Assembly (NCBI GenBank): GCA_030748415.1
Contig: JASMMA010000001.1
Span: forward strand, 62,001-126,000
Reading direction: 5' to 3'
Length of the DNA stretch: 64,000 nt
From: Planctomycetota bacterium
GTDB taxonomy: Bacteria > Planctomycetota > UBA1135
Below are positions 11,973 through 15,505 of the stretch, piece after piece (position 1 is the first letter of the stretch; each line of letters begins with the position of its first letter). The position numbers and the translations under genes were made by a program. The notes below the pieces were generated by a model. The model was not told the DNA's origin. It was given only the letters and a program-made list of their open reading frames with translations, and did not search any database.

Positions 11973-13407
11973 TGTCTTCTGCCATTAAGGCTTCCACTGC
12001 CTTCGTGAGTTCTTCCCCACGAATTTTCTTGTATCGGATGACCCCCTTTCTATCCACTAGCATGGTGAATGGGATGGAATGCACAGCAAACTCTTGAGCT
12101 ATAGCAGCTTTCCAATAACCACCATCGTAAATCTGAGGCCAAGGCATTGCTTGTTCTTGAACCCAGTTTTTCAAAATATGAGCATCCATTCGAGTTGGAA
12201 GCCGCTTTGCTCCTTTTGCTTCTGCATCTTGAACATCCTTTTCGGTAACCAAACGGTCTAGAGATATTCCCAAAACTTCAAACCCCTGCGAGTTCCACTT
12301 TTCATAAGTTGAAACGACGAGGGGAATCTCTGCTCGACACGGGCCGCACCAAGTAGCCCAAAAATCTAACAACAAAACTTTTCCCCGGAACATTTCTGGA
12401 GTTAGTAAATTTCCATCCAAACCCTTTCCCTCGAAATGGGGGATAACTTTCCCAATTTGCATTCGGCGGAGGATGGGAATTTCCTTAAGCAAGCCTTCGG
12501 CGCGCTCAGCATTTCGGCCCTCTCCTTTGCTGGTGTCTTGGAGAACCTTCTCAGCTTCATCGAGCTGGTCCTGTTCGATTAGACCACGGACAAGGTCTAT
12601 AGCCAATCGAGAGGAATCTACATGCACTCCTTCAGGTTGAACGGTAGTCAGGGCAAGAGATTGAGCATAGGCGAACCGAAGAGATTTGAGGCCCTTTTCA
12701 GGTTCACCCAATATGCGAAGATCAATTTGGCCTGCGGATGTAAGCGCGCTAATCGAAGCCCAAGTCCCAGCCCAGTCCTTTGCGAATTGGGTCATTTTCT
12801 CATGCATAGAATTGAAATAAGTGGAACGACCGTCGGGGTTTTGTGGAGGGCGCTTGCCTAGGTTTTCACGAATTGAATGAAGAGCGGTGGCCGCCTCGAT
12901 GTCTCGAGGGCTAGCCTCTGGGGATTTTGCTGAGGCTTCTTGAGGTTTTGGAGTGACTTTGTTTTGCGGCCGTTCTGTCTGCAGTTTTTTCACATGCTCT
13001 ACATAAAGTTCTGGGCCACCTTTTCGATAGCCAGTCTTTCCGTAAACCTCACCGTCAGGGGTCATCAGAAGAATTGTTGGATAACCACGGATGGCATATT
13101 TCTTTTTAAGCTCTTGGTTCCGTTTCGGATTGGGTACCAATGCTTTAGCCGCCTCCTTTCGGGGATAGTCTAAGGCAACCAAAATGTAATCCTCTTGGAT
13201 GGGTTTGAGAAAAGCATCATGTTGAAAGACTTCATCGTGAAGTTTGATGCACCATCCGCACCAGTCGGAGCCCGTAAAGTCAACGAAAAGATCCTTGCCC
13301 TCTTTCTGGGCAAGCTGGGTGGCTTTGTCGAAGTCTGCCATCCAGTGAGAGTCTTGGGCAAAGGACGGAGTTGAAAAGAGGAAGGGAAGCAGGAGGAGGA
13401 GTCTCAT
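11965..13407 (-). CDS. secreted protein with two thioredoxin-fold domains
   Basis: 480 residues with a clear signal peptide (MRLLLLLPFLFSTPSFAQ). Domain 1 (~20-140) is a DsbD-gamma/thioredoxin_7 type module with CGWC at 50-53 and VDFTGSDW before it. A helical, TPR-like linker (~170-310) follows. Domain 2 (~320-475) is a TlpA/ResA-type module with FWATWCGPCRAEIP, CGPC near 353-356, and a cis-Pro segment IPFTML. Both active sites are intact, so the protein could relay disulfides in the periplasm. The 3' end overlaps gltX by 8 bases. Confidence 0.88.
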   Translation of the reverse strand: MRLLLLLPFLFSTPSFAQDSHWMADFDKATQLAQKEGKDLFVDFTGSDWCGWCIKLHDEVFQHDAFLKPIQEDYILVALDYPRKEAAKALVPNPKRNQELKKKYAIRGYPTILLMTPDGEVYGKTGYRKGGPELYVEHVKKLQTERPQNKVTPKPQEASAKSPEASPRDIEAATALHSIRENLGKRPPQNPDGRSTYFNSMHEKMTQFAKDWAGTWASISALTSAGQIDLRILGEPEKGLKSLRFAYAQSLALTTVQPEGVHVDSSRLAIDLVRGLIEQDQLDEAEKVLQDTSKGEGRNAERAEGLLKEIPILRRMQIGKVIPHFEGKGLDGNLLTPEMFRGKVLLLDFWATWCGPCRAEIPLVVSTYEKWNSQGFEVLGISLDRLVTEKDVQDAEAKGAKRLPTRMDAHILKNWVQEQAMPWPQIYDGGYWKAAIAQEFAVHSIPFTMLVDRKGVIRYKKIRGEELTKAVEALMAEDTK

Positions 13408-13477
13408 GGAAATCAGTCTAAGGGTTGGGATGAATGTTGCCTGGATGAAGATGCCGGGGGCCGCTAGAATCTCCCTC

Positions 13478-13495
13478 CCGCCAGGCTCCTGGCGG
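13478..13495. repeat. perfect 8-bp inverted repeat just upstream of tRNA-Met
   Basis: CCGCCAGG and CCTGGCGG are separated by two bases and end two bases before the first base of the tRNA. The hairpin would sit in the 5' leader of the tRNA precursor. A TAGAAT box at 13465-13470 could be the -10 element, though I see no well-spaced -35 box. It is one of several hairpins clustered around this tRNA. Confidence 0.6.
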
Positions 13496-13497
13496 AC

Positions 13498-13574
13498 GGC
13501 GGAGTAGCTCAGTTGGTTAGAGCAGCGGAATCATAATCCGCGTGTCGGGGGTTCGAATCCCTCCTCCGCTACCA
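13498..13574 (+). tRNA. tRNA-Met (anticodon CAT)
   Basis: The full cloverleaf can be folded by eye. The acceptor GGCGGAG pairs with CTCCGCT (one G-U), the D-arm is GCTC/GAGC, the anticodon stem GCGGA/TCCGC holds loop ATCATAA, the variable loop is GTGTC, the T-stem GGGGG/CCCTC holds loop TTCGAAT, and the discriminator is A with an encoded CCA. A CAT anticodon can also mark tRNA-Ile2 (lysidine-modified). The body resembles elongator tRNA-Met, which I prefer. Confidence 0.95.
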
Positions 13575-13581
13575 ATTCAAT

Positions 13582-13616
13582 GCGACCATTTCGCGCAAGC
13601 GCGATGGTCGCTTTTT
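13582..13616 (+). terminator. intrinsic terminator after tRNA-Met
   Basis: The stem GCGACCA/TGGTCGC is stacked on an inner stem TCGCGC/GCGCGA and followed by five T residues. It starts 7 bases after the tRNA CCA. The inner GCGCAAGC core recurs in the terminator-like hairpin at 13726-13756, and a related GCGCAACGAGCGC core lies after tRNA-Lys. Confidence 0.88.
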
Positions 13617-13644
13617 CATTGGCAGCTGGGATTCTTGCAGAACG

Positions 13645-13689
13645 GTGTGCGTCGCTTTGCTCCGCACGCCTTGAGGGCTTTGCCCTCAT
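13645..13689. repeat. hairpin cluster between the tRNA terminator and the second tRNA-tail repeat
   Basis: Two inverted repeats sit next to each other: GGTGTGCG/CGCACGCC (8 bp, one G-U pair) and TGAGGGC/GCCCTCA (7 bp, TTT loop). They end a few bases before the second copy of the tRNA 3' end. No convincing coding signal is present, although both strands are nominally open. Confidence 0.6.
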
Positions 13690-13694
13690 CAGCG

Positions 13695-13716
13695 GCGAAT
13701 CCCTGCTCCGCTACCA
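13695..13716 (+). repeat. second copy of the tRNA-Met 3' end (T-arm/acceptor/CCA)
   Basis: This 22-base stretch matches tRNA positions 13553-13574 at all but two positions: its first base and one internal C-to-G change. The D-arm, anticodon arm and 5' acceptor strand are missing, so it is not a functional tRNA. It lies 142 bases downstream of the genuine copy and has its own terminator-like hairpin. Confidence 0.85.
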
Positions 13717-13725
13717 AACAAAAGG

Positions 13726-13756
13726 GTCGGTCCGCGCAAGCACGACCGACTTTTTT
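13726..13756 (+). terminator. terminator-like hairpin after the second tRNA tail
   Basis: The stem GTCGGTC/GACCGAC (7 bp) encloses an 11-base region containing CGCGCAAGC and is followed by six T residues. The layout copies the terminator after the intact tRNA: same distance from CCA and a similar inner core, but different stem bases with pairing kept. Confidence 0.75.
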
Positions 13757-13785
13757 GTTTGGTGGCTCCGTCGGCCTTCGGTGTC

Positions 13786-13876
13786 TTGGGCGATGGCCAA
13801 GCCATGCGGGCTTCGCCCGCACCCCCGAGGGGGTGGCCGGACAGCTGCGCCGTCCGGCGCGCTTGCTTCGCAAGCG
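13786..13876. repeat. run of hairpins ending at the third tRNA tail
   Basis: Five inverted repeats follow in quick succession: CTTGG/CCAAG, GCGGGC/GCCCGC with a TTC loop, ACCCCC/GGGGGT, GCCGGAC/GTCCGGC, and CGCTTGC/GCAAGCG with a TTC loop. The last one abuts the third tRNA-tail copy. The tract looks richer in GC than the flanks. I see no protein-coding pattern. Confidence 0.65.
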
Positions 13877-13898
13877 TCGAATCCCCCCTTCGCTACCA
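13877..13898 (+). repeat. third copy of the tRNA-Met 3' end
   Basis: Twenty of 22 bases match tRNA positions 13553-13574, ending in CGCTACCA. It starts 182 bases after the second copy. No obvious terminator follows. The stretch from 13899 to 14000 holds no gene that I can recognise; it leads to the 3' end of the convergent beta-helix pseudogene. Confidence 0.8.
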
Positions 13899-14000
13899 CC
13901 AATCCGAAGCTGGCGTTAAAAAACTGGGATAGGCAGTCAATTCACTTTTGGTTCATCAAATATAGAGGGCCGTAGTGGGCTGTGATGGGGGAGGGTTTTC

Positions 14001-15045
14001 TTATTGAATTGTCATCGCCAATGGATTCAACATTCTGTCCGACCCTAAATCCACTCCATGAAACCAAATGGGTGTTCCGGAGAGATAGGAGGGTATGAGA
14101 TTGCTGAAGGTGCCCAATCCGTTTGCATCAGTGTTGAAGGGTCTTTGAAGGTAGGGGACAGAAACATATCCCAGTCCATAAGGAGTATTGATGGGACCTC
14201 CGCCGGCAAGTGACCACACAAGAAACACCGTGTGGTTGGGAGTGCAATTCGTGAATTCAACAGTGGCCATTTGGCCAGCAATGAGATTCATCACAGACAA
14301 ATTGGGCGAAGTTTGGTCGTAATAATAGGCGCCCATATCGGCAAGAGTGCCATCTGGGTCGAGAGGAGAGTTCGGGTCACCAGCATCGATGCAAGGGGAG
14401 TCGGATTGCAAATGAAGATTGCTATTTACAGGATCCACATAAAGAGGGTCGGCGTTGATGTTGCCTGTACCCGTTGGCCAGCCGCCCACAATCTTGCAGT
14501 AGTTCAGTGTAGGGGATGAAAGAACGGCGTAGCTTATTTCTGGGTCACTCGGCGAATGGTTTACCCAGAGAATGCAGTTGGTCAAGGTCGGGGAAGATTT
14601 ATAACAAATCACTCCGCCTCCATAGGTTGTAGCGATGTTGTGGGAAAAGGTGCAGTTGTCAATGGATGGGGAAGAGTTGTCGTAGCAACCCACTCCACCG
14701 CCACTCCCATTATTGATGGCCTTCCCATTCGTCACCGTAAATCCTTCAAACACAGTGTCGGAGCCCTCCCCCGCAATAAAGCAAACGACAGTGCCCGCTT
14801 GATTCCCATCAATGATTGTGGTCTTGGGGCCATTTTCACTTTTGAGCGTAATCGCCTTTCCCTTGAGAATGATGAGCTCAACATAAGTTCCATCTCTTAC
14901 GATGACCGTGTCTCCATTTGTGGACCCGTCAATGCCCGCCTAAATTGTGGCAAAATCATCTGGGACATACCATGTGGTCTGAGCAAAGCCCACAGAGGGG
15001 AAGAGCAGGAGGGCGCAGGGGAAGAGGAACTGTTTTATAAGCAAT
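14001..15045 (-). pseudogene. secreted right-handed beta-helix protein interrupted by an amber codon
   Basis: Read from a TTG at 15045, the frame gives a signal peptide (LLIKQFLFPCALLLFPSVGFAQ-like) and the start of a parallel beta-helix protein, TTWYVPDDFATI. It then meets TAG at 14942-14940, where related proteins usually have Gln (the TIQxGI motif). The same frame continues at once with AGIDGSTNGDTVIVRDGTY and runs uninterrupted to TAA at 14001. One C-to-T change would explain it. The downstream part has beta-helix rungs (SSPSIDNCTFSHN, SSPTLTNCIL), an ADPLYVDP..DSPCIDAGDP segment, and a C-terminal beta-sandwich-like domain. A separate product from GTG 14753 (250 aa) would lack a signal peptide. 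A sequencing error is possible. Confidence 0.8.
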
Positions 15046-15100
15046 AGAGTGTATCAATTAAAAAGAGGGTGATAGGGGGTGCTTGAGTTATGCTATTGCG

Positions 15101-15505
15101 ATGAGCGAAGACCTTGAGTTTCCCTTAGAAACCTTCGATAACCCTCGTCCGGAACAGTCGTTTTTGATTGAGATTGTTACTCCAGAATTTACCTGCCTTT
15201 GCCCCATGACAGGCCAACCCGATTTTGCAACCATTCGGGTTCGTTATGTTCCCGGCCCACGGTGCGTTGAATTAAAATCACTAAAGCTATATTTGCGCTG
15301 TTTTCGAAATGCTGGGCATTTCCATGAAGATGCCACCAACCGAATGTTGGCAAAATTGGTCGATGCAACCTCTCCCGAATGGATGGAAGTTCGTGGAGAA
15401 TTCAATGTCCGGGGGGGCTTTGCAACAACCGTGACTGCTCGCCACGGGAGTTTGCCTGCGAACTTGGAACGGATTGAGCCCGCAGCTTGGAACGGGCCGG
15501 CTTAG
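15101..15505 (+). CDS. queF: NADPH-dependent 7-cyano-7-deazaguanine reductase
   Basis: 134 residues from ATG 15101. A TTG at 15083 would add six residues and has a G-rich stretch just upstream, so the start is not certain. QueF reduces preQ0 to preQ1 in queuosine synthesis. It is the short unimodular type: catalytic Cys34 in [11 protein letters not shown], the QueF signature [14 protein letters not shown] (58-70) and the FHE motif (74-76). tgt, which inserts preQ1 into tRNA, lies at 42.6 kb in the same window. The stop overlaps the convergent methyltransferase by 4 bases. Confidence 0.95.

Follow-up and report, generated by a model that had tools for sequence, protein, structure and literature searches.

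The window analysed here is a stretch of 64,000 nucleotides, and the gene of interest lies on its minus strand between a tRNA gene and queF (Table 1), with the tRNA (CAT), a thioredoxin-type gene and gltX located downstream of it. At positions 14940-14942 the plus strand reads CTA and the minus strand TAG, and frame 1 of positions 13974-15110 (minus strand) translates as ...LLIKQFLFPCALLLFPSVGFAQTTWYVPDDFATI*AGIDGSTNGDTVIV...LNPLAMTIQ*, with asterisks denoting stops. The amber codon is genuine in the sequence and in frame, with homology on either side, and the original prediction, which had described a lone amber codon in an otherwise open gene for a secreted beta-helix protein, was correct in both coordinates and description.

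Table 1. Positions in the window of the interrupted gene, its parts and its neighbors.
Feature	Positions	Strand	Remarks
Interrupted gene, secreted, probably right-handed beta-helix protein	14001..15044	-	347 codons including the amber, plus TAA
In-frame TAG (amber) codon	14940..14942	-	Residue 35 counted from TTG at 15044
34 codons 5' of the amber: putative signal peptide and start of first coil (TTWYVPDDFATI)	14943..15044	-	
312 open codons 3' of the amber, to TAA at 14003-14001	14001..14939	-	
C-terminal module, ~100 residues, common to many secreted proteins of the own genome	14004..14312	-	
ATA codon, aligned to the ATG start of the closest congener homolog	15036..15038	-	Possible second lesion
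queF, divergent neighbor upstream of the interrupted gene	15101..15505	+	Start codon chosen by eye
tRNA, anticodon CAT, downstream of the interrupted gene	13498..13574	+	

The length of the open frame alone is no proof of a real gene, as the window holds seven open runs of at least 150 codons with a late first ATG, GTG or TTG, the interrupted gene among them. It is the homology on both sides of the amber codon which, at the level of sequence, proves the gene to be real, with one BLASTP alignment crossing the stop and pairing query residues 22-347 with an intact homolog of 438 residues (G009.C30, E 1.6e-81). The signal peptide of the interrupted gene was judged by eye. The first ATG, GTG or TTG 3' of the amber is a GTG at 14753 with codon index 62, so that the product of a restart would be without a signal peptide; such a restart is too late to supply one.

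The start codon of the gene is also doubtful. No ATG is present 5' of the amber in this frame, and the candidates are a TTG (15044-15042) and the ATA listed in Table 1, the TTG being two codons upstream of the ATA. It is with this ATA that the ATG of the congener homolog G001.C21 (474 residues) aligns, and Met occupies the ATA column of the alignment in 3 of 12 rows. At least one congener homolog appears to use a TTG start, and the ATA may represent a second lesion unless the TTG is the true start.

The encoded protein is probably a beta-helix, called only probable since its profile scores are all under cut-off: Pfam PF13229 (Beta_helix) gave 23.2 bits against a gathering cut-off of 25.9, and NCBIfam gave weak NosD-like and choice-of-anchor Q matches. 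As in right-handed beta-helix secreted proteins of the PF13229 type, there is a signal peptide (by eye), there are coil repeats with GGG and SSP motifs, and homologs align over the length of the protein. Unlike these, the protein of the window shows by eye no more than about two clear coil repeats, and the open frames of the 12 homologs aligned below are longer (421-590 residues) than that of the interrupted gene. A protein search of the own genome (2,464,371 bases, 68 contigs, completeness 90.63) returned 35 matches, of which many match the C-terminal module only, two come from one gene (C44) and two (L041, L042) look like chance; the interrupted gene is the only one with an internal stop, the other 34 having none.

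The C-terminal module follows a pattern like GGGP..TPfG.gyvspP...WfhgaD.gs..mlNpla.ti and ends close to the stop codon, or right at it, in 26 of the 28 matches inspected in the own genome (interrupted gene included; the window locus of Table 1 and loci L015-L040), on otherwise different proteins. No match to it was obtained in Pfam or NCBIfam at E 0.1, and a limited search of the literature on planctomycete C-terminal sorting gave nothing fitting. The module is possibly a domain for sorting or anchoring that has not been described before.

The protein of the window was aligned with 12 homologs from seven genomes, giving 13 rows; one homolog is encoded elsewhere in the own genome and another (G012.C16) is cut by its contig end. 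These homologs were picked from the protein matches, leaving out G007.C22, G007.C23, G046.C116 and frames matching the C-terminal module only. The claim that family members usually carry Gln at the place of the amber was borne out, with Gln in all 12 homologs and in 54 of 55 other distinct N-terminal matches covering the position (many of them from distant phyla, and the 12 homologs partly included); the remaining match has Ser and none has a stop. In the weak homolog G007.C22, outside both sets, the residue is apparently Thr (by eye).

Conserved columns were defined by agreement among 70% or more of the other rows, and the amber column was left out. The interrupted gene keeps 90 of 99 such columns (0.91), the highest share of the 13 rows, with the homologs ranging from 78/110 (0.71) to 92/103 (0.89), and its nearest homologs are about half identical to it. 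No frameshift was found in the interrupted gene, nor any relaxed constraint at the conserved columns, so that, by this comparison, it presents itself as an interrupted gene without trace of long decay apart from the stop. The retention of these columns implies that the lesion is recent, or that it is an error, or that the protein is still made.

The same stop was found in none of the 12 aligned homologs and in none of the 55 further N-terminal matches, and no internal stop was present in the other 30 of 31 family matches from 26 family genomes (E up to 1e-25). In a protein search of 61 genomes, one other internal stop was present among the matches listed, on contig C23 of G007 (L146, 6500-10500, minus strand), where a gene of the beta-helix family is open apart from a single in-frame TGA (GGW*GNGNI). 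Its frame begins with a signal peptide (by eye), continues with beta-helix coils and reaches the C-terminal end, and its TGA is at a different position from the amber of the window, indicating that isolated stops appear from time to time in this family, at places unrelated to one another. These solitary stops are sporadic, as expected of nonsense changes or draft errors and not of a programmed site. A DNA search of the 61 genomes gave matches in eight, the window's own included; beyond the locus itself these were 50 to 260 bases long, and those in the own genome outside the locus were two short pieces. A scan of named genome contigs, which may omit records close to the window, gave 30 loci whose best segments were 25 to 60% identical, too distant in every case for a strain of the same species.

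Analysis of stop codon usage indicates that TAG works as a stop in the own genome. The ends of 52 long frames of the window, chosen mechanically and nearly non-overlapping, one being the tail of the interrupted gene, were TAG in 10 cases, TAA in 19 and TGA in 23. Release factor 1 (prfA, TIGR00019) is present at 428.2 bits against a cut-off of 423.25, and no match to PylS (TIGR02367) was obtained in the own genome, one control genome giving a match over cut-off. The check for a suppressor tRNA suggested with the original prediction was run and gave no anticodon CTA among 33 tRNAs (ARAGORN); this set is incomplete, being without a Gln, an Ile-GAT and an Ala-TGC tRNA, so that the assembly misses tRNA genes and the absence of CTA is only moderate evidence. 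An RNA fold of positions 14840-15000 (minus strand), around the amber, was no better than shuffles (z 0.02). On these data a code with TAG as a sense codon was rejected from the frame ends and prfA, and a structured readthrough element at the amber from the fold; amber recoding gained no support from the frame ends and prfA together with the PylS and CTA results. The in-frame TAG is shared with pyrrolysine or amber-suppressor decoding, but PylS and a CTA tRNA were not found here and RF1 is present.

The interval between the tRNA and queF appears, from the comparison of relatives, to be a variable site with changing passengers. In the only congener compared (G001), gene order is kept for the next gene, a signal peptidase, a Kdo-type kinase, a methyltransferase and queF, and DNA similarity ends at about the queF start; a TPR-type gene (by eye) abuts queF there in place of the window gene (L128, G001:C22), and as the contig ends at this gene, a copy may lie further on. 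A homolog between the tRNA and queF on one contig was absent in all three genomes inspected (G007, G008 and G014, the span of G008 being read in two pieces), and no beta-helix homolog was found beside queF in 24 relatives, in flanks reaching about 1.5 kb or as far as the end of the contig. In G006 (L048, G006:C28, 494-1500) the divergent neighbor of queF encodes a different secreted-type protein, with an open frame of 322 and the C-terminal module described above. The changing passengers of this interval fit a tolerated loss. Composition gave no signal of foreign origin, the G+C being 0.495 against 0.516 for the window and the third-position G+C of the interrupted gene 0.54 against 0.45-0.55 in six neighbors. 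A promoter and terminator scan gave nothing clearly above shuffles.

The reading that we favor, with a probability of roughly 0.6, is that of a nonsense allele of very recent origin, in the gene of a secreted protein that is dispensable and has many relatives in the genome. The gene would be one of a large group encoding secreted proteins, would be specific to its lineage and dispensable, and would lie in the variable tRNA-queF interval; a very recent single-base change in it would have produced TAG at the codon after DDFATI. Translation would then end about 12 residues past the putative signal-peptide cleavage site and no protein would be exported, making this a nonsense null allele for which the population may be polymorphic. 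The start codon may have been lost as well, and the loss of the protein would be tolerated owing to the related genes. We infer here that the organism really carries this base, that no protein is made as a result and that the related genes make its loss tolerable. This reading is supported by the in-frame stop in a homologous frame, absent from relatives and found in 1 of the 35 matches of the own genome, by the 90 of 99 other conserved columns retained, which mark the change as recent, by the evidence that TAG is read as a stop (RF1, the 10 frames ending in TAG, and the PylS and CTA results), by the lack of conservation of the site among the queF flanks of the 24 relatives, by the possible second lesion at the start codon and by the lone TGA in the G007 family gene. 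Against it, the rest of the protein is without the relaxed constraint expected of a gene long dead, the TTG apparently used by at least one congener homolog means that the start may be intact, and the same-module protein beside queF in G006 suggests that there may be some reason for this site to carry such genes. In a prokaryote genome survey (PMC7918605), bacterial in-frame stops tend to last only short evolutionary times. The recent nonsense pseudogenes and population alleles described there are like the present case in having a single stop, one substitution from a sense codon, in a frame otherwise conserved, but unlike them the stop of the window is common to no second genome (PMC7918605).

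Four options had been put forward in the original prediction. A fresh pseudogene agrees with the findings, and so does a sequence error, while a suppressed stop and phase variation gained no positive support. The main rival to the nonsense allele is an error of the consensus, or a minority variant that entered it, with the gene intact in the organism, and this is a possible, though not a likely, explanation. It would agree with the other columns being as conserved as in intact homologs and with the draft state of the genome (68 contigs, 90.63% completeness), but the doubtful ATA would then call for a further error, unless translation starts at TTG. Consensus errors of a single base are generally rare, which also counts against it. 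That the amber is read through at a useful rate, through a near-cognate tRNA or a suppressor that escaped notice, so that some full protein is made at a low level, is unlikely; the frame 3' of the stop is fully conserved, as readthrough would have it, but the stop recurs in none of the 12 and 55 homologs, RF1 is present, PylS and a CTA tRNA were not found (the latter weak, the set being incomplete) and the fold around the stop is unremarkable. The suppressed stop of the original prediction finds no positive evidence in these results, nor in the other frames that end in TAG. The same survey argues for in-frame stops being widespread, many of them read through and not pseudogenes, but it took only stops common to at least two species, which is not the case for the amber of the window (PMC7918605). 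It is slightly more doubtful again that the lone stop is a tolerated regulatory state, in which the gene would be kept under selection with trickle readthrough or with alternation of stop and sense alleles; a related genome likewise has a lone TGA in this family. Reversible on/off switching of a surface protein, of the phase-variation type, is very improbable: the protein is secreted and has many relatives in the genome, but the change is a point change, no aligned homolog has a stop there, and the search for switching elements, made up of a repeat scan and of Pfam on seven genes, lists no repeat at the stop in positions 13400-15120. As to recombining copies, the DNA search gave, outside the locus, the two short pieces of the own genome mentioned above.

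The case has the look of an ordinary recent loss affecting one gene among many similar ones, or of a sequence error, and not of a new reading of the code. If ordinary, it would mean little, that is, one of many related secreted proteins switched off, or a draft error, and it cautions against inferring amber recoding from one gene alone. Readthrough, if demonstrated, would make the gene a clear example from nature, in an uncultured lineage, of a frame conserved beyond a stop.

A separate feature of the locus concerns the tRNA (CAT), the tail of which is repeated twice downstream. The 22-base units lie at 13554-13575, 13696-13717 and 13878-13899, are spaced 142 and 182 bases apart, with the repeats 95% and 86% identical, and a hairpin and a T-run follow the first two. 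These are possible footprints of elements integrating at the tRNA end, or alternatively a repeat of the tRNA tail and terminator. A similar tail is also present near the same tRNA in the congener.
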